From a virus: a DNA stretch of 64,000 nt. Shown piece by piece: positions 1,658 to 63,800 of the stretch. Under the pieces are notes generated by a model. That model had not been told where the DNA came from. It did not search any database and saw only the letters and a program-made list of their open reading frames with translations. The position numbers and the translations under genes were made by a program. The stretch lies in the IMG/VR virus record IMGVR_UViG_3300026157_000001, positions 1 through 64,000 of that record; one strand, given 5' to 3'. Numbering within the stretch: the first letter of the stretch is position 1; every line of letters begins with the position of its first letter.

Positions 1658-2563
1658 TTAAGCTGATAGGTCTAACCTAGCGCATGATTTCGTGTTGGCA
1701 ATTATCATTCCAACTGATTCGTAAGCAGAGAACGTAATAACATTACGTTTCTTCTCGATATCGAATTTAGTATCGTTTAGGATACAGAATTCTCCCATGA
1801 ATTGAGGGGCTGTGAACGCGTAGATCTTATTGTCTAACAAGTCTGTCTTATTAGAAACGATGATTCTACGACCGAATAGTGTAGAGTACTTGTACCCTTC
1901 TATCGCGATGCGTCCTTTGTACTCGCCGTCACCAAATGTTCCAGAAGTATTGTTATTCACAATCAGTCTGTTATACATTTTAGTATCCATCAGCAATACT
2001 TCACTTTGTAGCTGCTGGCCGTCGATTACGTTAAAGAGCTCTTCAAGAGACTGTTCTGGGACTTCACCATTAGTGTAAGTTCCAGATACTGCGCTGCTCT
2101 CAAGAGCAATCGCTGCGTCTACCTGGCGTAGAAACGCGGTATCTTCAATCTTCTGAATGTCCAGTACAGAGTTCTGCTCAATTACTTGAGTTAGAGGCAT
2201 TCTGTAAGCCAGAAGCTCCTCTTCTGTTTTCTGGAATTCTTCAGAGCTGATCGTACCGAATTTCAGTTCAACTCTCTTACCTTCAATATAGTTAGCTGTA
2301 GGTTCGCCACGGAAGTTAACTTCCATTGCTTTGGAGTCTGGCTCCAATTCTACAATCTTAACTACGCCGTCGTGTTTTGTACTAACCTGTAGGTCAGCTT
2401 GTGTCACGTACATTGGTGGTAAAATTTGTCTTGCAAAAGAAACTTCTCTCAGTTTCTCACGGATAAAGCTAGCTCCATCCATTGCAATTTTATTCATTCC
2501 CTCTTCACTATCTAGCTTACGAAGGAAGATGTCGTTTATGTGTCGTGCTTCATTAGCATCCAT
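1658..2563 (-). CDS. Major capsid protein (HK97-fold type, probable)
   Basis: 301 aa. The layout is that of an HK97-like capsid protein: a helical N-terminus (M-D-A-N-E-A-R-H), a middle with repeated E-Q-N-S-V-L-D and D-A-A-I-A-L-E spine-helix-like segments, and a C-terminal strand run (R-R-I-I-V-S-N-K, F-S-A-Y-E-S-V-G-M). It is preceded by a good AGGAG Shine-Dalgarno and followed by a strong terminator, as expected for a very highly expressed gene. Its neighbours, in order protease, scaffold-like acidic protein, small proteins, decoration-like protein, capsid, match the usual head module. It contains one N-K-I-A motif near residue 25 of the kind repeated in other late proteins, which may be a maturation site. 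It contains no TGA codons. Family assignment is from layout and context. Confidence 0.7.
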   Translation of the reverse strand: MDANEARHINDIFLRKLDSEEGMNKIAMDGASFIREKLREVSFARQILPPMYVTQADLQVSTKHDGVVKIVELEPDSKAMEVNFRGEPTANYIEGKRVELKFGTISSEEFQKTEEELLAYRMPLTQVIEQNSVLDIQKIEDTAFLRQVDAAIALESSAVSGTYTNGEVPEQSLEELFNVIDGQQLQSEVLLMDTKMYNRLIVNNNTSGTFGDGEYKGRIAIEGYKYSTLFGRRIIVSNKTDLLDNKIYAFTAPQFMGEFCILNDTKFDIEKKRNVITFSAYESVGMIIANTKSCARLDLSA

Positions 2564-3442: not shown

Positions 3443-3778
3443 TTACTCTCCTTCAGAATCAGTATCAGCTTCAGCAGCGGCTCGGAATCCTTGGTACATT
3501 ATCTGTCCCATCTCATAAGCTTCTGCTACTTTTTCGCGTTGATAAATCTCGTACGCGTCTTCTTCCATTTTGGCAGTAGCTACTTTTTCTACGTCATCCG
3601 CAGAGAAGTTACCTTCGCCATATTCTTCTGTCAATGCATCCTCTGCCCAGGAAGCGTATTTAGAGATTAACTCTACACGTTCGCTTGTCTCGGCCATTTC
3701 CTGCTCTTCAGCAACCTTTTCACGGGTTTGCTCTACAGTTTCGGCTTGCATTTGGTTAAATGTTTCAATTAGACTCAT
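3443..3778 (-). CDS. Acidic scaffold-like head protein
   Basis: 111 aa, strongly acidic and helical, with R-E-K-V-A, V-E-K-V-A and R-E-K-V-A repeats and a D-S-E-G-E tail. It starts 1 nt after the preceding stop. Acidic, helical, repeat-bearing proteins between protease and capsid genes are typically scaffold or prohead-core components; the EKVA repeats may be cleavage sites for the protease encoded two genes upstream. Confidence 0.5.
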   Translation of the reverse strand: MSLIETFNQMQAETVEQTREKVAEEQEMAETSERVELISKYASWAEDALTEEYGEGNFSADDVEKVATAKMEEDAYEIYQREKVAEAYEMGQIMYQGFRAAAEADTDSEGE

Positions 3779-4507
3779 TTAATTTTCCTCCTGGGAATAA
3801 ATTGATTTGTACATTTTCGTAATAAGATCTTCATTAACTAATGAAGCCTTTTTTTCTTGTTTCATATATCCACCAGCTCCGTCAGGGGTGTGCGTCTTAT
3901 GTTTATCATAAGCGTCATGACCAACTTCTTCTTGCATCTTAGCGTCTCTCGCTACAGTTACAGGAGAATCTTGTGGTCTCGATACCTGAGAAATTGGAGG
4001 AACCGGCATATCTTTATTTGTTGGCATTGCAACGCCTAGGGCGGCAAGCTCAGCAAACAGAGAATGTGCTGCTATTCTTCCAAACTCTTGAGCCATTTTT
4101 ACAAGCTCTTTGTCGGATGGTAGTGGTTGAGTTTCGGCAACTTTTTCTGTAGCAGCGTCAATAGGGTCTTTCGACTCCTTGTCCGCTTCTGCAGTTTTTT
4201 CTTCTGTAGTGTCTTCTTTAACTTCGTCAGTAGCTTCTTCAGCGACCTTCTCCTTAGTTTCAGTCTCTTCTACAGCTTCTTCTGCTGTCTTCTCTTCAGT
4301 AGATTCTTCAGTTGCTACTTTTTCTTCAGTAGCTTCTTCAGCTGTCTTCTCTTCAGTAGTTTCTTCTGCCTTCTTATCTTCAGCAACTTTCTCCTCAGAA
4401 ACATCATTCGTCTCCTCAGTCAAAGAACTCAAGAAAGTATCTTCTGCGGTCTTTTCAGCTTCCGCTTCTAGGTCAGCAAGAATGTCTTCTACATTAAAAT
4501 TTGACAT
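3779..4507 (-). CDS. Glu/Lys-repeat scaffold (prohead core-like) protein
   Basis: 242 aa. Residues ~20-125 are a degenerate repeat of E-E-K-T-A / E-E-K-V-A / E-A-T-E units, extremely acidic; the C-terminal third (P-P-I-S-Q-V-S-R-P onward) is non-repetitive and ends in Y-S-Q-E-E-N. It abuts the 111-aa gene and follows the protease gene. The place, charge and repeat structure fit the internal scaffold of a T4- or HK97-like prohead, which is cleaved and expelled. The K-[TV]-A tetrapeptides are denser here than anywhere else. Confidence 0.6.
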   Translation of the reverse strand: MSNFNVEDILADLEAEAEKTAEDTFLSSLTEETNDVSEEKVAEDKKAEETTEEKTAEEATEEKVATEESTEEKTAEEAVEETETKEKVAEEATDEVKEDTTEEKTAEADKESKDPIDAATEKVAETQPLPSDKELVKMAQEFGRIAAHSLFAELAALGVAMPTNKDMPVPPISQVSRPQDSPVTVARDAKMQEEVGHDAYDKHKTHTPDGAGGYMKQEKKASLVNEDLITKMYKSIYSQEEN

Positions 4508-4517
4508 TATTTCCCTC

Positions 4518-6380
4518 CTAAGAGATTAATTCTTTATAGATTATATTTATTGTTTCCGGGTTCAAGTTGTCGATGCCCGCAGTCTTTGGTACTTCAGCAT
4601 TGAAATATCCAGAGGACTTTTTCTTTTTTACTTTTTTGGCCTTTAGTGAACTTTTTGCATCGTCTATTGAATGGCCAATACCTTTTGAGACTCCTCGAAT
4701 AAAACCCGTGGCTCCGACTGCTGTCAAGAGGGGGTTACGTCGAACAAAGTCTTCAGCGTCGCTTAGCGGCTGACCTTTTCGGGCCTTGGCTTCGTTTTTA
4801 GCAGCCATATAATAAGAGGTAGGCGCTGCTAATAAAAAGGTTCCCAGCGTTTTTTCAAACGGGGAAGCTTTGGACGCATGCTTAATATTAAAAATTTCTT
4901 CGTTAACCGGTTCCAAGGCTTCTTTTTGTTTATTCTCTATTGCTATGCCCATGCCTAATCCTGCTACAGGTGCTATCCATGGATTCTTAGCTATAAACTT
5001 AGTGAAATTACTGACATTTGCACTGTTGCCAAATATTTTAGCATAACCTGCATATAGAGCTCCGACAGATGTCATTAAGGGGATGGCGTTTTTTACACCA
5101 CTTCCTGCTGGTCGAGGCTCATCATCAAATAAAAGGCTATTTATAAAAGACTGTTCAATCTCTTGTCGGTTAGGATATAACTCGACACCCTTACTTTTTA
5201 TGTTAGCACTCTTCTCTATGATTCTATTAATAATAGCTGGTTTTGTCAAGGAAAACTTGGAAATATCCGGTTTTATTTCGTTTGCAACCTTCTCATTTAC
5301 ATAATCAGGGCCGATATTATTGATCTCCGGTGCATCTTTTGGGCTGGTCTCGAAAACGAAACCTTTTTCTTCCAAAAGTTTTGCCAGTTTTCTGTTTCCA
5401 GTTGTGTATAACGCGAGCTTTTGAAAATCCTCTCGTTTTGGGAGGATTCTTAAAGCACAAAATGTTGATAAAGTTTCGTTAAGCGGATACTGAGATAGCT
5501 TCTCGATCTGCTCATCTGTAAAATTTTCTTGTGAATCTAATATGATTCGTTTTGGGTCTTCTTCAATGGCGTCTATTTCGCCGGCATTAATTTCTTTCTT
5601 AATTGAGGCATGCTTCTTATCTGACATTAAATTTGCGGCCTTCTCCATAGTTGCCTCGTTGTCGACTTGTGCGGTCGCACCCGGTCCGGATGCATCTTCT
5701 GCCATTTTACCAAACCCAATAGGTGCCATAATTGCTGCCAGTGGATCTGCTGGAATAGTTACAATCGAAAGGTCAAAGAACCTAGGCTTTGTATTAATAG
5801 CATATACACGTCTACCGTCGTCAAGTATTTTGTTCATCTTGTTACGAAGATAGTCACTGTATTCTTTTCTAGTTCGTGCTTTCTTTCCTGTTATAGAGCA
5901 TACGTCATAAGGTACTTTACATCCCATTGATAGTTTGATGTTCATGCCTTTTTTCATATTAGTCATTAATTTACAAACGTCCGGGTGGGACTCTTGAAGT
6001 TTAATGACTGTCTCTACTCTTTTCATGTGAGGGTTATAATAAGAATAAATAACCTTGCCCATAGATTTTTTAGGATCTTTGTTTACATGATGTTTATAAA
6101 CGTGACCGTGATCTACAAACGTATGGTGGTATTTTTTAAGAGCCTCTTCTGGAAAGAAGTCACCATTTCTATTTGGTCCATAATATTCTCCAGCTGTAAG
6201 TGCATTGGCTAATGCATACACGAATCCCGGCTCACGATCTAGTGAGTCAAGAAATTGGGCAACCTCGGAGGCGTATTCTGCTGTTTTGACTAAGCCCTCT
6301 GTTTTAGAAGGCTCTGGCAAAATAGAAAAAATCTCTTGGTCATCCTGTGTTTGGATATACTCAGCTGTCTTTTCTATCAT
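4518..6380 (-). CDS. Prohead maturation protease with C-terminal membrane-like extension
   Basis: 620 aa. Residues ~20-225 resemble the herpesvirus-type/U9 prohead protease: A-N-A-L-T-A-G-E-Y-Y-G-P-N-R-N-G-D-F-F, a histidine segment (F-V-D-H-G-H-V-Y-K-H-H-V) followed by G-K-V-I-Y, the serine strand I-K-L-S-M-G-C-K-V, and F-F-D-L-S-I-V-T-I-P-A-D-P. H and S in those segments are the likely catalytic residues. The remaining ~390 residues are unusual for this family: they hold repeated K-x-A motifs, two hydrophobic Gly/Ala segments (residues ~440-490 and ~510-560) and a lysine-rich stretch. The stop is TAG; the ATG overlaps the preceding TAA (TAATG). It should process scaffold, capsid and perhaps the K-x-A-containing internal proteins. 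Confidence 0.75.
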   Translation of the reverse strand: MIEKTAEYIQTQDDQEIFSILPEPSKTEGLVKTAEYASEVAQFLDSLDREPGFVYALANALTAGEYYGPNRNGDFFPEEALKKYHHTFVDHGHVYKHHVNKDPKKSMGKVIYSYYNPHMKRVETVIKLQESHPDVCKLMTNMKKGMNIKLSMGCKVPYDVCSITGKKARTRKEYSDYLRNKMNKILDDGRRVYAINTKPRFFDLSIVTIPADPLAAIMAPIGFGKMAEDASGPGATAQVDNEATMEKAANLMSDKKHASIKKEINAGEIDAIEEDPKRIILDSQENFTDEQIEKLSQYPLNETLSTFCALRILPKREDFQKLALYTTGNRKLAKLLEEKGFVFETSPKDAPEINNIGPDYVNEKVANEIKPDISKFSLTKPAIINRIIEKSANIKSKGVELYPNRQEIEQSFINSLLFDDEPRPAGSGVKNAIPLMTSVGALYAGYAKIFGNSANVSNFTKFIAKNPWIAPVAGLGMGIAIENKQKEALEPVNEEIFNIKHASKASPFEKTLGTFLLAAPTSYYMAAKNEAKARKGQPLSDAEDFVRRNPLLTAVGATGFIRGVSKGIGHSIDDAKSSLKAKKVKKKKSSGYFNAEVPKTAGIDNLNPETINIIYKELIS

Positions 6381-7929: not shown

Positions 7930-9498
7930 TTATTGTAAATTTTCTCTCAGGCTGTCTGTCAACATCATTAGTGCCATGGAACCAAACAAGGTTGCATGCA
8001 CAAAGTCGTCTGGGCCTACGTTAGTGTACTTTTCTTTATTCTTATCTTCGTCGTATTCTATAATTACGTTCCTAATGTCCGTAGTCATAGGCTCTATGTC
8101 CTGGTAATTAGGTAGGCGTAACTTCCCCTTTTTGAGCATTGTGAAGAATTTATTCATCACCCAGTTCTTATTCATTGTATATGCTCGCATTTTAGGATTA
8201 TACCTTACAGGCTCTTTTTGGGTAGGAAGATGTTGATAAGGCCATACCTTTTCTAAGCCTAACCTGTTTCTAAATTCACTGTTAGGCGCTTCTCCCATAC
8301 CGTAGTCACTAGCTAGTAGTGAGCAGTTCCACTTTTTAAATATCTTTGGGATTTCTTCATGTATATACGAATAGTCTGCTTCTTTACCTAAAAATTTCTT
8401 AGCGTATACAACCTGTAATTTACCTTCCCTTTCTTGAACAATAGATATACAAGTATGAGATTTTTCCGAATTTACCGGGCCATAGTCAATACCCATAATA
8501 GTAGGCCTGCCAACAGAATGTTTATCAGGGTTGGGGCTCATTCTAAAGTCTGGATTACAAGCCGCTATCACTTCTTCTTTTGTAATTGGGATAGCTCCTG
8601 AATCATACTCTAGCCCTAGAGTCTCATTGTTAAACAGAGCGGTGCTCTGGTTTTCCATCTTGTAAATGACGTCGTCTTGCCAATTAACCCATGGTGAGTG
8701 CGCAAAGTGTAAAAGACAAACTCGGTAGCCTTCCATTTTAGGCCTGTCTTTCATATGCTCATAAGTAGACACCCACTGGCCTTTGGCCTTTCTAAGGTCT
8801 AGTTTGTTTCCGCACTTAGAGCAGATTAAATGATTAGCCCCTATATTATCCGGGCCTAGTATATTCCAGTGGTTACAGGCTTCACACTTTATCGCATACT
8901 CATTTTGTGAAGACTTAAACCAAAGATCTGCTAATGTGCCCTTTGTTCTTTTAGGTGTGCCTGCATATATACTGCGCTTTGTTACTGAGCGTGACATTGT
9001 TTCCTCAATAACTCCTATAACGTCTTTTCTTAAATCCTGAGTTTCGTCAAATAAACAGACGTCTGAAGAAATACCTCGAATACGGTCAGCGTTAAGAAGT
9101 GCATAACGCATGTTAATAACGCTACCGTTCTTGAATTCTTTTTTAAATACGTTCTGCACCATATGTGCATCAACGAAGTAGTCTCTTATAAGAGGTGAGT
9201 TTTTAATAACCGGTTCCAGTTTGTCACGAACAAACTCCTGAGTTTGAGCTACTGCAGGGGATACGTAAAGCTGTTTAAAGTTAGGCTTCATTAAAGCCCG
9301 GGCTAGGAGAATATTAGCTAAAGACGTACTTTTAGCGGTCTGTCTAGAAAATTTCATTACAACCTTCTTGGCTTCCGTATTATATATACGTCTCATATGA
9401 GGATAGTCGTCCAATGAAAATGGCTGACCTCCTAAATAGAAAAAATTCTCCGCAAAGTCACTGAGCGCTAGCTCAATTTGTTCCTTATCTTTGCCCAT
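7930..9498 (-). CDS. terL: Terminase large subunit
   Basis: 522 aa, normal length. It packages DNA into the prohead using an N-terminal ATPase and a C-terminal RNase-H-like nuclease. A Walker A-like loop (S-R-Q-T-A-K-S, residues ~51-57), a Walker B (D-V-C-L-F-D-E-T-Q, ~165) and a coupling segment (Y-A-G-T-P-K-R) are visible. A Cys4 zinc knuckle (C-E-A-C ... C-S-K-C) at ~213-240 is the feature of GpA-like terminases. The nuclease acidic residues lie in M-G-I-D-Y-G-P, L-L-A-S-D-Y-G-M and near the C-terminus (G-P-D-D-F-V-H-A). It overlaps the bS21 gene by 31 nt. No small terminase subunit was identified nearby. Confidence 0.9.
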   Translation of the reverse strand: MGKDKEQIELALSDFAENFFYLGGQPFSLDDYPHMRRIYNTEAKKVVMKFSRQTAKSTSLANILLARALMKPNFKQLYVSPAVAQTQEFVRDKLEPVIKNSPLIRDYFVDAHMVQNVFKKEFKNGSVINMRYALLNADRIRGISSDVCLFDETQDLRKDVIGVIEETMSRSVTKRSIYAGTPKRTKGTLADLWFKSSQNEYAIKCEACNHWNILGPDNIGANHLICSKCGNKLDLRKAKGQWVSTYEHMKDRPKMEGYRVCLLHFAHSPWVNWQDDVIYKMENQSTALFNNETLGLEYDSGAIPITKEEVIAACNPDFRMSPNPDKHSVGRPTIMGIDYGPVNSEKSHTCISIVQEREGKLQVVYAKKFLGKEADYSYIHEEIPKIFKKWNCSLLASDYGMGEAPNSEFRNRLGLEKVWPYQHLPTQKEPVRYNPKMRAYTMNKNWVMNKFFTMLKKGKLRLPNYQDIEPMTTDIRNVIIEYDEDKNKEKYTNVGPDDFVHATLFGSMALMMLTDSLRENLQ

Positions 9499-21110: not shown

Positions 21111-22793
21111 CTATTTATAGTCTTCTAGTTTGTCAAGTGCTTTCTTGCGCTCTTCCCGCATCTTAAGCATCTTAACCTTCTTTTGTGGACCTCATACTTT
21201 CTTAGCTGCTTTATGGTGGTGGTGCCCATCCAGAATATATTTATCCTTACTTATTATCAATGGCTTCATAGACTGTTTCTTCTTAAGCTTGTCTATAAGC
21301 TTACGAAGTTTCTTCTTCTGATAGTCTATCTGGCTTGGCTTTACGTCTCTAAGGGCCATACTCACTGCTACCGGATCGTAGCCCCTCTTGAACTTATCGA
21401 GGTCCACCTGCGGCATATTTGAGCGCTTACGTTTAACTTGAGACTCTTTGTATAAGTTAGTATAGTTGTTCTCGTCTGCTCACTGCCTAATAGGTGGTAA
21501 AGGTTTTTTGCTCATACTTTTTGAGACCGAGTACCAATCAGCCAACATTTCTTTCTGTACATTTTTTGGAATGTCTGAGATATGTATATCCCTTGGCTCT
21601 CGGTACATATGGTGATCCTCAGAAATATAATGCTTTATCTTATGTGGGGTAAAGTCTTTTACTACATCTTCAGGTATTAACTCTTTGTTTCCTTTTTGGT
21701 CATAGAAGCCATCTTCTCCAAAGAAGTATTCCCGGTAAGGCGTCCAAGCTTTTGGATTAAATTTAGTCCTGTCGTGTAATAGCAGCTGCATCCTGGGAAC
21801 ACCTAATTCCCGGCCATGTTTATATACATCTGCCTTATGCTTTAAGATATACTTAAGTTGTTCCCAATCCTCTATACGGTTGTCTAAAAATTCTGATGTT
21901 TTGACATGTCCTAGTTTACTTTGCTTCCAATCTTTATATTTGTCTGAGTTTAAAGTCTTTCCTATTAAATATGAAGAGCTTCCTGCTGCTGCAGCCATCC
22001 CTAATGGAGTTGCCATATATGTCATCGCAGAGGGGAGTCTGGCCTTTGTATATTTTCCTAATGTTTTTAAATAACTACCTTTTGTTCCAAGTTCATCTGT
22101 TTTGTTCAACATTCTAACAGCTCGTCTATCCGCATCTAGCTCTTGTGCATTTCCTAACGTCCCAACTGCGCCCCCGGCTAATGCTGAGAGTCCTGCAACT
22201 TGAAGCTCTTTTCCTTTTTCTGCTGCAGGGCTTAAGGCACCACTAACCGCCATTACACCTATCATCGTTCTGGGTGTAGAACTTTGGGAAAATCTTAGCT
22301 TGTCTAAAAAATTTATCGACTTATTATACGCCTTGTCAGAATTAGAGAATTGTTCTATATGTCCTAACTCATGAGCTATAACATGACGCTTACTAGTTCG
22401 AGGATCAAATTGGACTTTTAACGCACCGTCAGTTCCTTTTGTTGCGGAAGATCCAAAATTAAGAGGGTTAGAAGAAAACTTTACCTCTTTATCTTTAACT
22501 TTAGAAACTTCTTTTAGTTTTTTAAAAGAAGCATTATCTTCTGGGCCAGTAGCAGTGGCAGATCTTGAAAGGAGTTCATCAGGTGTAAGTTTACCCTTTT
22601 TAAAATCCTCTGTTACTTTCTTTGTTCTTTTGTCGTACTGTTTTATATTCTTTTCTATTTGTTTATCGGAAGCACTAAACCCAGATAAATATGTACCCTG
22701 TCCAGTTATATAGCCTAAGCCGGCCGCACCTACTGCTTCAGGAAGCTCTTCCGGTTTTACTGGCCTTGAGAGTTTTTTTGTTGAGTCGCTCAT
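21111..22793 (-). CDS. Metalloprotease-like, DUF5662 and ParB-like multidomain protein
   Basis: 560 aa, joined by reading TGA at 21480-21482 and 21192-21194 as Trp; ends in TAG. Three domains are visible in order. Residues ~100-230 have a zincin motif, R-H-V-I-A-H-E-L-G-H-I-E-Q, with a downstream N-A-Q-E-L-D-A-D-R-R-A that fits the third ligand of M48-like proteases. Residues ~300-425 (D-W-E-Q-L-K-Y-I-L-K-H-K, H-D-R-T-K-F, H-Y-I-S-E-D-H-H, L-A-D-W-Y) match the DUF5662 pattern also present in the early gene at 28003. Residues ~470-545 (R-D-V-K-P-S-Q-I-D, P-L-I-I-S-K-D-K-Y-I-L-D-G-H-H-H-H) match ParB/sulfiredoxin-like nuclease or NTPase domains. A Gly/Ala helix separates the first two. Probably a virion-carried enzyme. 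Confidence 0.7.
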
Positions 22794-23224
22794 TACTTAA
22801 TTACTTTTAAAATATCTTTGAGTGTTTTTGCTCCATAAGCAGACTTTGTACTGCTGATCGAAGATGTTATGTGATCTACTCCCCGGCCTGCTCTCACTAA
22901 CGGATTCATATTCTTTTGTGACTTTCTAAGTTCTGACCTGCTCGCAGACATCTCATTTAAGAACGTGTCTTTAACGCCTCTTAATGATTTCTCTTGGGTC
23001 CTTGGATACCTTCCCTTTTCTTTATTGATATAATGGGTTAGCTCGTGACGTAGAATTTTGCGTTCTCCGCCTCTAGAAGTTACGGGGTCGATATCTACCC
23101 TTCCTTTCGTACCAGCGTCCGGCACAAACTGACCTCGGCGTCCTCCGGGCAATGCACGGTATTGTACGAGGGGTCCGGCCGCGTTCTTTTCAAGTAGATA
23201 ATCTACCGGTGTGACTTTGTTCAT
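22793..23224 (-). CDS. Small zinc-metalloprotease-like (zincin) protein
   Basis: 143 aa. The motif I-L-R-H-E-L-T-H-Y at residues ~57-65 gives H-E-x-x-H, and it is the second zincin in a row. The N-terminus P-V-D-Y-L-L-E-K-N-A-A-G matches the (L/I)-x-E-K-x-A motif shared by late proteins and could be a processing site, with the protease domain just after it. Third zinc ligand not assigned (E-M-S-A-S-R at ~112 is one option). It is coupled to both neighbours by single-base stop/start overlaps. Could be a lytic or maturation protease, or a DUF-type fold without activity. Confidence 0.55.
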   Translation of the reverse strand: MNKVTPVDYLLEKNAAGPLVQYRALPGGRRGQFVPDAGTKGRVDIDPVTSRGGERKILRHELTHYINKEKGRYPRTQEKSLRGVKDTFLNEMSASRSELRKSQKNMNPLVRAGRGVDHITSSISSTKSAYGAKTLKDILKVIK

Positions 23225-26200
23225 TATCTTGCATTCAACCCTGTGAAATATTTGAAGTCTGATTTTAATGCTTTATCGTATGTGTCTGTATGAGCATCTA
23301 ACTCTTTCAGTTGTTTCAGTTCTTTTTTTGTCACATAGACGTCAGCTGGTCTTCCGCTCATCATTTGTTTAGATCGTGGCAACGCTCCAACTGCTAAATA
23401 TTTAGAAGCTGTTCCGAAGTTCTTGTAATTTTCCTTCGGAGGTTCCGGGAAATTTTTATAGTCTGTCGTATTATATTTCTTATGAAGCTTGTCGACTGTT
23501 TTATTAAAGCGCTCTTTGTTAAACTCTGGATTTTCTTTATACTCTTTTTTAACTTTCGGTTTAGTAAGCATTCCTAACCCTCCAAGAGCAGTTGCTCCTG
23601 CTGCCGTACCTGCAAGAACTTTTCCTCACCCTGGTAATCTTTTGGTATCAGAGATTAATCCTGCTGCACCTCCTAAGGCACCACCTAGGCCTGCACCAAC
23701 AGTTACATTTTCTTTTCTTTTTGAATAGTCTTTTGTTTTCTCTACTACTGATGGGCTTAAGGTAGGATCTTTATCCTGTAGCTTATTAAGTTCTTTATCT
23801 GCTTTGCGGTTGCCTTCTTCTATTTTTCTATAGTTGGCAACATACTTTTTATGAGCATCTAAATCTTTTATGCCTGCTATATCCTCAAAATATCCAGCTC
23901 TTTTCTCAATTAAATAGTCAATCATTGCTGCTTTGTTCATAAATTTCTCTGGTCTTATATCCACCAAAACCGGTGCTTGGTGCAGCCCACTGCTATGGAC
24001 ATGTTGTGATTTTATTTTTGCCCATTCTCCGATAAAGTTATCAGGAGATTCATAAGCTTTTTGTCGAAGATCGTCGCTTAAACCAGTACCAATTCTAATA
24101 GGCACAGAACTTCCTTCTGGCAGGGCGATAAAGCCTCCAACACCAGATCCTTCATATTTAGATCCCTCAGAAGCTTCAAAGGTTCCGAGAATCTCTGCAT
24201 CATAATCATCTGTCTGTTTTACTTTCCTTGGAACAGGTTCATCTAGTTTATACACTACCAGACCTTCTTCCGTCTCAGGGTGAAATCCTTTCATAATACG
24301 ATTAAACATCTGTCGCTTGTCATGTGGATCAAATGCTAGTTCGGGGAGTTTAAGGTCCGGAATTTTATCACGGACTTCTTTTAACATCTCAAGTTTCCGG
24401 CTATATGGTAAGTCTTCTACATCTTTACCTTTAAACTTAACAACATCGAAAATTTTAAATTCTAGTGGTCGTTCTTTTTGCTGGATTTCTCGAGCTTTTG
24501 GTACCGAGGAATTGAGGATACGGGCTGTGTCGTTTCCTTTACCTCCAGGAACGAAAAGCTCGGAACGGAGTATTGTATTCCCAAGCTCTTTAGGGCTCGT
24601 TTGTTTATAGAGTGGTGTTTTAAATGTGTGGTCAATTCGCTCAGATCCTTTCCTTGAGCTCCTATAAGAGAACACGTCCGGACGTTTGTTAGGGCGTAAA
24701 ACGACCAAATTGTGAGCCCCGTCAAGCTTGGGAGCAAACACCTCTTCTGTTCTGGACGTGTCAAGCTTAAGCCTGTCGGCGTCGATGGTTTTGTAACTTT
24801 TCTTATAGCTGGGTACATCTTCATAAACTTTTGTTTCTTCTGATGGTGTATAATTATAAATCATCCAGTTATCTGTTCCACCCTTACGAAGTAAAATAAA
24901 TCGCTTAGTGTCCCGGCCAGGATACATGTTAAATTCAATCTTTGAGTCGCCGGCCTTCAATATGTCAACGTCCCCGAGAAATTTACTTTCGACTTCTCCT
25001 TTGCCATAGCCATCTTCGATGGTTCCGCTTCACCCCATATATTTAGAGGTGTGGTCCGGCTGACGAACTGCTAAATGCTTTTGGCCTGTCCCAGGCATAC
25101 CTTTGGGTAAAGCTCAAGAATAAGCCTTACTAGAACCAGGGGGAGATAGCCTAAGGTCTGTATGACTGTTGCTTACTAAAATTCCAGATATAAAATAATT
25201 ATGATTGCCTTCTACTTCTAAGTCAAACTTTTTTAAAGATAGCTTTTGGTTTTTATTTTTACCTTGTTTCGTCCTATACCTCTCTTTCTTCAAAACAGGT
25301 CTAGGATAAACAGTATTAAACTCTAAAAAGCTTTCAAAGTGAGGGCGAGTTTTTATTTTATTGTAAGTATTTGGAAGTTTATATGAAAATTCAGGCTGTA
25401 TAAATTTTGAAACAATATTAAAAAATAATTTATTAGAAGCTATTGCTGAAGAACATAAATAATAATACCCATCTCTTTCTCTTTTAGTAAAAGAAAGGCT
25501 GTACCTGGTATTTAAAAAGTGTTGTAATTTCTCAACTTCTTTCTCAGTAAAACCATTTGTATATAAATATAAATTTCCGGAATAGGGATCTACTCCTGCA
25601 TCACTACGTCTTTTGGTATTACGTTCTAATTTCTTAAAGTTGCTGCTTTGTGGTGACCATTGGCCATCATCCATAAACCATTGGGCTATAGCTGCGGGGG
25701 TTAAAAATTTAAATAGCTCATCTTTTATTACCTTAGTTCCATCTTTATAAAAAAGTTCAGATAGTGTGTGAAAATATTCATGCTTAAATCTAAAATAATA
25801 GAAGTCTGATCTATTTTTTCTCGCTTTTCTTAATTCTGTGTTTGTTGCAAATTTTTCAGAAAAATATTCGACTAGCTCTTTTTTAGACGCTTGTCCCCAA
25901 TTAAAGGCCGGTGTTCCAGTGTAATTTTGAGGTATTGAAGAATCTCCCAAAAGGGACCCAATTAAGAAATCTTTTTGGTTCTGTGATAGACCTCTGTCTT
26001 CCCGTAAAACCTCATGACTATTGGGATCAATATCTTTTGCAGGAATTTTATAGAGGTTATCTGTTCTTTTATCTTTTATAAAAATTTTATGGTTAGGCGT
26101 ACTCGTGCACCCGTTTCTTTTATTTAGGTACAATTTGTGCCAAAAGTCGGTACTACCATTTTCCCACACCCTTATAACCTTTTTATCTTCTACTTTTTTC

Positions 26201-26409
26201 GTTTGAGGATTAAAAGATTTTACTAAATCACCTATTTTTATGTCTCTAATATACTTTAGAGTGTTATCTGCCATTTTAACGCGAGCAGAGGGCATGAAAC
26301 ATCCAGCCCGTTCAGCATCGTGCTCCTGCAGATTTAACTGCCAGGTAGCATTCTCTGCTCTTGGTATAGACGTTTTTTGTTTTTTATCTGGTATTCCTGG
26401 TGCGTACAT
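23224..26409 (-). CDS. LigD-like 3'-phosphoesterase/ATP-dependent DNA ligase, intein-containing
   Basis: 1061-aa precursor in one frame when TGA at 25114-25116, 25030-25032 and 23626-23628 is Trp. The mature protein begins with a LigD-type 3'-phosphoesterase domain (L-Q-E-H-D-A-E-R-A-G, S-H-T-D-L-R-L, then S-W-A-L-P-K-G with TGA-encoded W, and I-E-D-G-Y-G-K-G), interrupted by a 378-aa intein. After it comes an ATP-dependent ligase domain: F-A-P-K-L-D-G-A-H (K-x-D-G nucleotidyl motif I), S-E-L-F-V (III), F-K-I-F-D-V-V (IIIa), E-E-G-L-V-V-Y-K (IV), K-V-K-Q (V) and an OB-like region. The C-terminus has the I-D-Y-L-I-E-K-R-A motif and glycine-zipper helices (G-A-G-L-G-G-A-L-G-G-A-A-G) as in other virion proteins. 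Role: healing and sealing of DNA ends, possibly carried in the virion. It is the first gene of the late operon from 26.4 kb. Confidence 0.8.
25168..26301 (-). other. Intein with LAGLIDADG endonuclease in the phosphoesterase domain
   Basis: 378 residues from Cys (C-F-M-P-S-A-R-V-K-M-A-D-G-like Hint block A) to V-S-N, followed by extein Ser. N-terminal splicing blocks: S-A-R-V-K-M-A, I-G-D-L-V-K, T-P-N-H-K-I (block B, T-x-x-H). Endonuclease blocks: F-L-I-G-S-L-L-G-D-S (first LAGLIDADG) and A-Q-W-F-M-D-D-G-Q-W (second). C-terminal blocks: F-D-L-E-V-E-G-N-H-N-Y-F (F) and I-L-V-S-N (G, terminal Asn with penultimate Ser in place of the usual His). Insertion falls between A-E-R-A-G and S-H-T-D-L-R-L, right beside the catalytic His-x-Asp of the phosphoesterase. 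Confidence 0.85.
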
Positions 26410-27616: not shown

Positions 27617-28003
27617 ATGAATACAAAAAACGGACTAGCTGTATCTTCCTATAAAATTTGGACAGATGCAGAAGATAAAAAGCTTTTGAAGGCAATTTCT
27701 AATACAGAAACTCTTACAGAAGCCTTTGCTACTGTAGCAAAACATTTACCAGCTCGCACAGAAGCTAGCTGTAGTTCACGTTATTACACACTGCGAACAG
27801 GGGGCCAAATCCCGGAAGCAGATGTCCTGCGTAATCGACGCGGTATTATGACTCATAATGAAGTCACAGCCGCAGAAATTATCGATGTAACAAGTGACGA
27901 ACAGGAATTTCTCCTGCCAGTGTCCTTGCGCTCGATCAAAACGCTCATAGACCAACTGTCTCCTGAGCAGCGATCAGAGCTTATCTCACACTATATAAGC
28001 TAG
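27617..28003 (+). CDS. Myb/SANT-like DNA-binding protein
   Basis: 128 aa. Residues ~14-58 fit a Myb/SANT helix pattern: I-W-T-D-A-E-D-K-K-L-L-K-A-I, then F-A-T-V-A-K-H-L-P-A-R-T, then C-S-S-R-Y-Y-T-L-R, as in W-x(3)-E-D ... G/A-R-T ... C-x-x-R-Y. Such domains occur in phage early regulators. The C-terminal half is acidic. The TAG stop overlaps a GTG start of the next gene (TAGTG), so the two are coupled. Confidence 0.6.
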   Translation: MNTKNGLAVSSYKIWTDAEDKKLLKAISNTETLTEAFATVAKHLPARTEASCSSRYYTLRTGGQIPEADVLRNRRGIMTHNEVTAAEIIDVTSDEQEFLLPVSLRSIKTLIDQLSPEQRSELISHYIS

Positions 28004-28512
28004 TGAAACGTCATCTATCTTACTTAAAATATGTACTTCTGCACAAATGGTATGTGTGGCAGGCTGGCCTGGTTACAGGAGCTCCCTTGTGGAGGCTCCT
28101 GATCCATGACTGGACAAAGTTTCGGCCGTCAGAGTGGAAAGATTACGCTCCCAATTTTTATAGACTGGACGGAAGCTCACAGGAAAGAGATGATCGTCCG
28201 GAAGCGGTAAAAGGCCCATTCCGAAAAGCTCTCCAACGACACTATAAGCGAAACAAGCACCACTGGCAATACTGGGTATATTTTCGCCCGGATACTCGTG
28301 AGCTCAAGGCTCTGGAAATGCCAGAAAAGTTTGTTCGTGAAATGATTGCAGATTGGATGGGTGCTGGAAAAGCTACAACCGGTGACTGGGATAGTATTGA
28401 AGAATGGTATCCTAAAAATAAGGATAAGATGATTCTGCATGATGCCACTCGGCTTAAGGTAGAGGAGATCTTGGTTTACGAACTGGACTATACAGAGATA
28501 GTCGCTAACTAA
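28003..28512 (+). CDS. DUF5662 family protein
   Basis: 169 aa with a GTG start overlapping the previous stop. The pattern Y-L-K-Y-V-L-L-H-K-W-Y-V-W, L-L-I-H-D-W-T-K-F-R-P-S-E-W, H-Y-K-R-N-K-H-H-W-Q-Y-W and M-I-A-D-W-M-G-A-G-K is the DUF5662 signature, with many conserved His/Asp/Trp that could bind metal. Biochemical function unknown. A second DUF5662 copy is fused inside the late protein at 21111-22793, so the phage carries both a free early form and a probable virion form. Confidence 0.7.
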   Translation: MKRHLSYLKYVLLHKWYVWQAGLVTGAPLWRLLIHDWTKFRPSEWKDYAPNFYRLDGSSQERDDRPEAVKGPFRKALQRHYKRNKHHWQYWVYFRPDTRELKALEMPEKFVREMIADWMGAGKATTGDWDSIEEWYPKNKDKMILHDATRLKVEEILVYELDYTEIVAN

Positions 28513-52670: not shown

Positions 52671-52831
52671 GTGCTCTAGAGTATGACGTAACACTCCTTA
52701 ACCCGATGGAACACCCTACCACAGAACGCATAGATCATAGATATTCGTCATGGGCGGAATATATGGTAAATTGGAGCCGCAAAGTTACACCTACTTACAA
52801 GGCTAAAATAAGGAGGGCATTCTGTGTATAA
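52661..52831 (+). CDS. Small unknown early protein
   Basis: 56 aa, begins M-E-L-S-A-L-E-Y-D-V-T-L and ends K-I-R-R-A-F-C-V, TAA. It overlaps the previous gene by 10 nt and the next by 8 nt, continuing the chain of coupled genes; an AGGAGGG near its end serves the next gene. It uses TGG for Trp twice. No family recognised. Confidence 0.5.
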   Translation: MELSALEYDVTLLNPMEHPTTERIDHRYSSWAEYMVNWSRKVTPTYKAKIRRAFCV

Positions 52832-53465
52832 ACAAGCTGTTTTGCTGTCATCAAAGGGAAATCTTTATTATAGTACAAACTTTTATCATATGGCATTAAA
52901 GCCTAAGTTTAAGTTTAACCTTTCTATCTTCAGACAGTTTAGCCCTCCGGGCTTTAGTGTGGGCTCCCCTTTTATCTTTAATGATGACGGTACTTTACCT
53001 GACAGAGTGTCAGCAGACCTTAAAGAAGAAGGCAATGAAATCCTATACTTTACCGACCGTAGAGACTATAAAAACTTTTTAGCCAGAAACAGACTAACTC
53101 CACACCCTGCATTCTTAGACCGGAACTATCCAGGACGTATAGACCCTTATCTAGCCTGAATAGCCAGACCATATACAATGGTTGAGGATGCTAATAAAAC
53201 TCGGTGATATCTCGACTATCGAAAGATTCCTATCGTCTCGCACACCGACTTACAGAAAACATGGTTGACACACTTCTTTGATTCGCACATAGAGGCCCGC
53301 TTCTTAAGCCCTAACGGTGCCGACACAGATTATCAACCCTTACCATTCTTATATACACTTACGATCTCTAAGGCGTTTTTTATAGCCTTTTCTGGAAAAG
53401 TACCGATAAAGGCAGCATGGTCTTTTATGGACCAGAGCGAATTACTTGAGAATCTTTTGGTATAA
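52824..53465 (+). CDS. Unknown early protein with two TGA-encoded Trp
   Basis: 213 aa from GTG 52824 (AGGAGGG 7 nt upstream) to TAA 53465 when TGA at 53157-53159 (P-Y-L-A-W-I-A-R) and 53205-53207 (N-K-T-R-W-Y-L-D-Y) are read as Trp. All three pieces are in one frame with no TAA or TAG, and the sequence after the TGAs (K-I-P-I-V-S-H-T-D-L-Q-K-T-W-L-T) looks like normal protein. This is an early plus-strand gene, so the recoding is not confined to late genes. No family recognised. The stop lies in the next promoter (CTTTTGGTATAAG). Confidence 0.6.
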
Positions 53466-60895: not shown

Positions 60896-63800
60896 ATGTC
60901 ATTACAAGAAACCGAACGGTTTAATACCAGAGAAGGTACGAAGGGTATGAGTAAAGGAATTGACGCATCTTCAGAAAAGATGGTCATGGATATACTCCAG
61001 GCTACCCAGTATGCAAAGCCTGAAGAATCTACAGTACGTGAGCTAGCATCCAATGCTGTTGATTCACAAAGAGAAAAAGAGATTGCGTATGATATTTTGT
61101 CAAACGGGGCTGACCCTGACGACTACTTTGTCGAACGAGAGGGAGCGCAGTACGAAAGCTCTAAATGGGATCCGTCCTATTTTGATATAAACTATTTCGA
61201 CATGACGAAAACAAACGTTCTCATTCAATATATAGAGAACGCCGGCACAGGCTATTGCGACGAGTTCAGTGTAACTGACTATGGCGTAGGTCTGGGCATG
61301 CCAAGACTCCGGGGTTATTTTAACTTAGGATATTCCTCAAAAAGAAATACAAAACATGCGTTAGGCGCTTTTGGTATCGGAGCAAAAAGTCCGCTGTCAA
61401 CTCAGGTGCCATTCTATACTCTAGAAACTGCGCATAACGGCCGGAAGTATAAATTCAATATCTATCCCTATAAAGTAGAGAGTACAACCCCTCGCTTTAA
61501 TATGGAGACAGAGGATGAATACCCAACGCAGAATATAGGCACAGAAAAAGACCCCTATATCATCCACTATATTCCAACGGATGAGAAAAACTTCTGTAAA
61601 GTATCAATGGGTGTCAAGCGCCATAACCGGCACAGATACCGTGATGCGGTAAAACACCAACTACTGTATTTTCCCAATGTAGACTTCCAGTATAAATATG
61701 AAGGCAACGACCATTGGAATGAAATAGAGTTTCAGGCAGATATTCTACACAACAGCGACAGCCTGATTATATCCTCTAACATGCAGTATAGTAAACCACA
61801 CATTGTGGTAGTAAAAGAGAAAGGATCTGACATGGGCGTTACCTATGGCACGATTGATTTCCAAGAGCTTGAGATGGAAACCCTACGTGGTTCTATCGGC
61901 TTTAAATGTCCTATTAGATCGGTCGTGGAAGACCGAGAGACTGGTGAACGAAAAGTAGTACAAGACGGCGTTTCTGTAAATCCTAGAATTTGGTTATTAA
62001 TATAACTTTTTGTACTTTAGATTATGAAAAAATCTAAAGCAGGTATTTATAAAATAAGTTTCCAATGTAGCCATTTAAATGTATACTACGGAAGCACAAA
62101 TAAGTTTAACAGGCGTAAATCTCAACATTTACATCTTTTAAGACGAGGTAAACATAGTAACCCTATATTACAGAGTTACTTTAATAAATATGGAGAAACC
62201 TCATTTAAATTTAGTAAAGTTGAGACAATCTTAGATGAAGACGAAGAGTATATAGTAAAGCGAGAGCAGTATTATATTGATGCTTTAGAATCTAACCAAG
62301 ATATAAAAACTCTTAATTGTAATTTGGAGGCTGGAAGGCCTCCTTATACATGAACAGAAGAAAGACGAGAGGAGCTCAGAGAGCGTAATAAAAATTATAA
62401 GTGGACAAAGGAAAGACGAGAAAAGCACTCTCGTATAAAACAAGGATCCACACGCTCAGAAGAGGCTAAAGAAAAAACCTCAGAATCTTTAAAAGAGTTT
62501 TATTCTCACCTAAGAACAGAAGAAAGGGCCTGCCCTTATTGTAATTCGCTTTATACAAGGAAAGTTGGTAAGCGATATAATAAAACAAAGAAGCAAATGA
62601 ATCAGCGATATAAATGCACCGACTGTGACAAGAACTTCTTTAAACCTATCAAAAAGTAATTAATAACTCGCTGGGCCTTTATAGAGCAATCTATAAAGTG
62701 CATTGGGTGAATTGCTGGAAGGCGAAAGCTAATCAGCAGCCAAGCTAGGGGTACACCCCTAGAAGGTTCAGAGACTAGTGGAGGGGTAAAGCCCCCTTAA
62801 TGACCACAATAGCGCCCAACATCTCTCAGAGATGATGATATAGTCCACCCCGCTTTATAAGTGCGGGTTGAGCAGAGAAAGCGTTGTCTGGGACGAAAAC
62901 ACCAGAGCTTATATCCAGAAAGTAATTAAAGATGCTCAGGATGAAGCATCAAAAATTATCCAGGCCGAGCTAAAAACAGATGATTTCTATACATGGCTGC
63001 AGCGCAGCACAGAGATTATCAATCAGATGAGCGCCTTCTCCTATCAGGAAACAAAGCTAACTATATTAGCAAAGATTGTTGATAAGCATAAGCTTCAAAC
63101 AAAGTTTCCAGGAGACTCACGCATTATATATAAGCATAACCCGTCTACATTCTTTAAGGATATAGAAGTAAAAGCTATTGAAAAAGACCAGATCTATAAA
63201 AATGGCAAATATAAGACAAAGATAAACCGGGATGATGTACCAAACTGGGGATACTTTAAAGGGTCTTTAGTGTATGAGATGACTGAGGACGAGCGCCACA
63301 GTGTGACGAAAGATCTTTATATTCAGCACTTAAAGGATAGCAATCACTTTATTACAGTAAAGAAAGCTACCGATGAGCAAGTAAAAGAACGAATAGGTAA
63401 ACGCTTTAAAGATACTCAGGTAGCCACAAGAGGTGGTGAAAAGATCACCAAAAAGATTAAAGAAGAAATCGCATACGCTATAGAACAGCGAGACATTATT
63501 TGGGATGCGCTATTTGGAAGTGATCATATAGAGATTGAAAACTATGCTGACATTGAAGTAACGGATGAGTTCCGAGAACTGATGAAAAAGCAGAAGGAAG
63601 AAGCGGAAGAAGAAGAACAAGAAGACAAAATGGCAAATATGACGCCTAAAGAGCGTCGTGAAATGCTTGGTAAGACTGTTTGCTATTCTTTCAAAAAGAA
63701 CCCAAGAGCTACCGGGTACAGCAGCTCTAAGGACTGGGTGCTATCAAAGAAAGAGCCAGTCGTAAATGACTTGGTCAATTTTGATAAACCGGTTATCTAC

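Follow-up and report, generated by a model that had tools for sequence, protein, structure and literature searches.

The bacterial NHEJ enzyme DNA ligase D (LigD) is built as PE-LIG-POL or POL-PE-LIG, with 3'-phosphoesterase (PE), ligase and polymerase (POL) domains, and in bacterial cells it normally repairs ends in partnership with Ku. The window, by which we mean the whole 64,000-nucleotide stretch of phage DNA analyzed here, encodes a protein with a PE domain followed by an ATP-dependent ligase, and we asked what such an enzyme might do in a phage. The first-pass annotation had seen no Ku gene in the window. This holds more widely: Ku is absent from the 68.8-kb record that contains the window, which is incomplete (a 99.9% identical contig extends 3 kb beyond its left end), and from 50 other PE-bearing virus records. 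We also found no POL domain (LigD_Prim-Pol) in the window record. That domain scored above the cut-off only in G007, a 79.6-kb record whose protein has the PE-LIG-POL order and is thereby a complete LigD. The window protein thus resembles bacterial LigD in joining the two activities in one chain, and differs from it in lacking POL and Ku, in lying in a phage late module, and in carrying an intein.

The PE-ligase frame, its intein and its TGA codons

The gene is a single open frame of 1061 residues only when TGA is read as an amino acid. Its parts, apart from the tail described below, are:

23224..26409 (-), whole frame, 1061 aa with TGA as Trp: N-extein, intein, C-extein (PE and ligase), tail
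26302..26409 (-), N-extein, residues 1-36, with the first PE catalytic His (H30, LQEHDAERAG), placed by end-to-end alignment with the intein-free homologue G057
25168..26301 (-), intein, residues 37-414, with a LAGLIDADG_2 homing endonuclease, from Pfam and splicing motifs
24820..25167 (-), remainder of the PE domain, SHTDLRL..., with H453 and Y457
23944..24747 (-), ATP-dependent DNA ligase: nucleotidyltransferase (K561-LDG) and OB domain
25114..25116 (-), TGA as Trp, residue 432, a position occupied by Trp in about 90% of the family
25030..25032 (-), TGA as Trp, residue 460, where the closest relatives have an aromatic residue (Phe)
23626..23628 (-), TGA as Trp, residue 928, within the tail

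Along the frame, Pfam places an intein splicing domain split around LAGLIDADG_2, then LigD_N (37.2 bits in the unspliced protein, above the cut-off), then DNA ligase and OB domains, both as weak matches. A family profile built from 41 members and run against solved structures matched PE domains (3p4h, 4e-25) and DNA ligases (4eq5, 2e-12), so that the profile check suggested by the first-pass annotation places the second domain among DNA ligases. The ligase part has a KxDG adenylation motif, downstream Glu, Glu-Gly and Lys-x-Lys motifs, and the OB domain. An AF2 model of the PE and ligase (residues 415-822), computed from the 41-member family alignment, reached a pLDDT of 93.5 and matched DNA ligases with Z up to 18.3 by structure comparison (Foldseek/VIA); T4 ligase was the best match, and human LIG1 and the LigD ligase were also recovered. 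A BFVD fold search returned phage proteins named DNA ligase. In the family alignment, the PE His/His/Asp/Arg/His/Tyr and the ligase Lys/Glu/Glu/Lys/Lys are kept at 95-100%. LigD_N, the family profile and the model all agree and strongly support the original reading of a LigD-type PE-ligase; we predict with near certainty that the gene product joins a LigD-type PE to an ATP-dependent DNA ligase and retains the catalytic residues of both. One could instead suppose that the domains are dead relics with a structural role in the virion, as their fusion to glycine-zipper tails might suggest, but all catalytic residues examined are kept across a diverse family and in the confident model, and we regard this idea as very improbable.

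The closest solved PE domains are stand-alone archaeal enzymes (Korarchaeum 3p4h, Methanosarcina 3p43). Several archaeal PEs share the RAG spacing. The HxAxRAGxHxD spacing of the window is two residues longer than that of the solved P. aeruginosa and Korarchaeum PEs. The archaeal matches are short PE-only proteins; in contrast, the window PE is fused to a ligase.

Three features of the protein had been missed in the first-pass annotation: the intein, the three in-frame TGA codons, and the status of the tail as a separate module. The intein (378 residues) separates the two PE catalytic histidine groups, HDAERAG and SHTDLRL, so the PE active site can form only after splicing. It has the features of a class 1 LAGLIDADG intein, namely Cys1, a TxxH block B (TPNH), two LAGLIDADG (DOD) motifs, HNxxF (HNYF), a C-terminal Asn (in SN) and a +1 Ser; its penultimate residue is Ser, not His, and the same is true of the G007 intein. 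Its G+C content is 0.316, compared with 0.427 for the ligase part. With the intein removed in silico, LigD_N matched a longer stretch and its score rose to 43.0 bits. An intein-free homologue, G057 (IMG/VR 3300028374_000012), is 57% identical to the spliced window protein and aligns without a gap over the junction (AERAG-SHTD in the window, AERAG-RHLD in G057), a precise empty site, and G007 has a homologous intein at the identical position. Ser occupies the +1 position in the two intein carriers and in none of 103 intein-free viral copies. We infer that the intein very probably splices out of the window protein in vivo.

As the frame reads, the full-length protein requires its three TGA codons to be decoded as Trp; at residue 432, G057 and L051 have TGA too. 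Late genes of the phage hold 20 in-frame TGA against 62 TGG codons, and early genes read in the same way hold 9 against 119 (p 0.0008). Six of the 9 early TGAs fall at most 9 codons from the gene end, compared with 0 of 20 late ones (p 0.0002). Several early genes called under code 11 terminate at TGA within ATGA overlaps, with the next TAA or TAG mostly 0-8 codons further on. TGA is likely in dual use, as a stop in early genes and as Trp. One early-arm gene, 52824-53465 (+), has two in-frame TGA codons. No suppressor tRNA (UCA) was found in the incomplete window record, and none is present among the 26 tRNA genes of G032 (L276, L277), a TGA-rich relative of 210 kb that also has a tmRNA; these 26 include a CUA-anticodon tRNA and a Trp-CCA tRNA. 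TGA-to-Trp reassignment has been described as late recoding in other phages (PMC9523058). The window resembles those phages in having in-frame TGAs at Trp positions, concentrated in late genes, and differs in that no suppressor tRNA was detected in its record and in that the recoded genes include an end-repair enzyme. With its catalytic motif interrupted by an intein that a close relative lacks at the same site, and with TGA codons to be decoded, this one late enzyme would be under stacked control.

The late module and the phage PE-ligase family

The leftward arm, of which the PE-ligase gene is the first gene, includes:

7930..9498 (-), terminase large subunit (TerL)
4518..6380 (-), putative head maturation protease, EKTA/VKTAEY near the N-terminus; NCBIfam prohead protease, weak (E 0.0014); conserved in 39 of 50 relatives
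3779..4507 (-), acidic, scaffold-like protein in which EK[TV]A is repeated eight times
1658..2563 (-), HK97-fold major capsid protein

The position at the start of this arm fits the earlier description of the gene as heading a late operon; sigma-70 and terminator scans around the PE-ligase gene gave chance levels. The rightward arm encodes a BT4734-like/DUF5906 protein, a PD-(D/E)XK nuclease, an AAA ATPase and a HATPase gene. The head protease is putative, its identity resting on gene order and a weak match, and it had no match among solved structures.

Among the 50 PE-bearing virus records, a relative of the window's TerL is present in 36 and the head protease in 39. In all 38 records that allowed both to be placed, PE and head protease lie on the same strand, and in 23 they are no more than 30 kb apart; these 38 include near duplicates, and 33 remain once the five so judged are set aside. 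TerL is on the opposite strand in 13 of 36 records. Because the PE gene shares the head-protease strand throughout, it sits in the structural module. The claim of a late, virion-type gene therefore stands, and we are confident in predicting that a late structural-module position is a trait of the family.

Several other features of these genomes deserve mention. Two HExxH metallopeptidase-like late proteins, at 21111-22793 and 22793-23224 (-), adjoin the ligase; the former contains DUF5662, and a related domain (phrog_20637) also occurs in 28003-28512. On the rightward arm, a group I intron with a GIY-YIG ORF (62024-62865, +), with one in-frame TGA in a Trp-like context, comes after the HATPase gene 60896-62005, apparently a split rIIA-like gene. 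In G033, G058, G067/G077 and others, TerL and head-protease matches are split, intein-like, inside frames of at least 900 residues.

We found the family with the DNA pattern HxAxRAGxHxD[LFIV]R in IMG/VR viral sequences, which gave at least 120 viral matches; of the 120 matches listed, 103 pass a simple PE motif filter. At least 60 of 105 proteins (the 103 among the matches listed, the window and G007) are PE-ligase fusions, a minimum because some frames run off the end of their locus and because G007, whose ligase motif is KDDG, was left out of the count. In a tree, the window clusters with L052, L051, L096 and L143, and Acetobacteraceae LigDs form a separate clade. As sole query, the window protein recovered only the same phage, and a two-member alignment recovered only G007. 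Searches of named phages with the window, G007, L052, L046 and L024 as queries gave weak matches, mainly to the ligase part of annotated phage ligases. The ligases of T4, T7 and other phages have the same fold as the window ligase; however, the comparison ligase from Campylobacter phage Los1 lacks the PE motif even though the match spans most of the query. We found no phage LigD-type PE-ligase in the titles and abstracts of the open-licence literature searched, and the family is apparently undescribed so far. It offers naturally Ku-free PE-ligases to study.

The tail and the EK-x-A motif

The ligase is followed by a tail with these features:

23227..23940 (-), tail, residues 824-1061, starting MNKAAMIDYLIEKRAG; not homologous to the G057 tail
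23896..23913 (-), LIEKRA motif, one of 28 EK-x-A motifs of late proteins
23566..23706 (-), two glycine/alanine-rich segments, glycine zipper-like by direct reading

The first-pass annotation had remarked on LIEKRA and on glycine-rich helices at the C-terminus, and both are found here. The window protein and G057 can be aligned up to residue 445 in spliced numbering, or residue 823 when counted over the whole frame. From that same ligase end G057 continues with an unrelated tail (EKIAFDLSD...), and both tails open with an EK-x-A motif. As the alignment places it, the tail is a separate module beginning exactly at the ligase end. Several close relatives (L052, L096, L143 and L051) are missing the tail, and no copy of it was found elsewhere in the relatives searched.

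The 25 late proteins of the window record contain 28 EK-x-A motifs versus 2.4 expected from shuffling, 8 of the 28 in one scaffold-like protein, and the 47 early proteins contain 1 versus 1.5 expected. The head clusters of G032 and G079 hold 11 (0.4 expected) and 7 (0.5 expected). In the flanks of the wider family the enrichment is modest (25 versus 9.0); the signal there is weak, so we gave up the idea of a family-wide EK-x-A motif and retained it for the close clade only. An N-terminal KxA tag is modestly enriched in the close clade (16 versus 8.6) and in the window (8 versus 3.7), and separate neighboring late genes of relatives often begin like M[DN]KAxxIFEKxA. EK-x-A may be a recognition site, likely for a head protease or for sorting; a role in cleavage is a guess. 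The shared motif offers a direct, testable way to predict which proteins enter the head in these uncultured phages.

Possible roles of the enzyme

The best overall explanation, in which our confidence is evenly balanced, is that the PE-ligase is a late-made, packaged and injected end-repair enzyme that acts without Ku. Produced late in infection, the DNA end-healing and nick-sealing enzyme would, once spliced, enter the head along with other EK-x-A-bearing proteins, where the head protease may clip it after LIEKRA. It would then travel into the next host with the genome and, without the help of Ku, remove 3' blocks from the incoming DNA and seal its nicks or ends. The shared EK-x-A motif and the modular tail are consistent with packaging and delivery, to which we give slightly less than even weight, and an injected repair enzyme is a plausible reading. 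A late gene need not be packaged, which limits this interpretation.

In the main rival, the enzyme stays unpackaged and acts late in the producing cell, where it would heal and seal replicated concatemers that carry nicks or 3'-blocked ends, either ahead of packaging or while it is under way. The late structural-module position and the ligase fold would suffice for such a role, and several relatives have no tail or tag. However, it leaves unexplained both the EK-x-A motif common to head proteins and the fusions of PE-ligase to other late-type modules in relatives. We take it as a serious contender, although we lean against it.

Known phages offer partial parallels. Like the genes of T4-type internal proteins, which are packaged and processed by a protease, the window gene belongs to a late or head module. 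In mycobacteriophage Corndog, end joining by a Ku system circularizes incoming DNA (PMC4351075); Corndog encodes Ku, whereas the window phage has the ligase half without it. A broader proposal, which we offer tentatively and consider rather doubtful as a whole, is that a large uncultured tailed-phage lineage packs a Ku-independent end-repair kit (PE-ligase, in some with a helicase or polymerase) as tagged modules, which the head protease would free at EK-x-A and which would be injected to repair or circularize the genome; in the window phage the kit would be gated by late TGA decoding and protein splicing. If true, an end-healing and sealing half without Ku in a structural module would tell us how phages keep their own DNA ends safe or join them.

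The neighbors of the PE-ligase in relatives point to one more alternative. A SNF2/DEXH helicase adjoins or is fused to it in L051, L052, G057, G007, L070 and L083, and 2H phosphoesterase domains are fused ahead of it in L035 and L059. Both would suit counter-defence repair, in which the damage done by host nucleases (restriction, CRISPR, anticodon or DNA nucleases), whether breaks or 3'-blocked ends, is reversed by an enzyme that is delivered or produced in the cell. A protein expressed late could serve defence only if injected, and we judge this role improbable. As a separate observation on these neighborhoods, the region between the PE-ligase and TerL encodes a second PE-like protein, degenerate in sequence (QKHKKIGQKAHFDIRIYN), in L096 (reverse strand, 3619-4053 of the reversed locus) and in L143:6568-6993.
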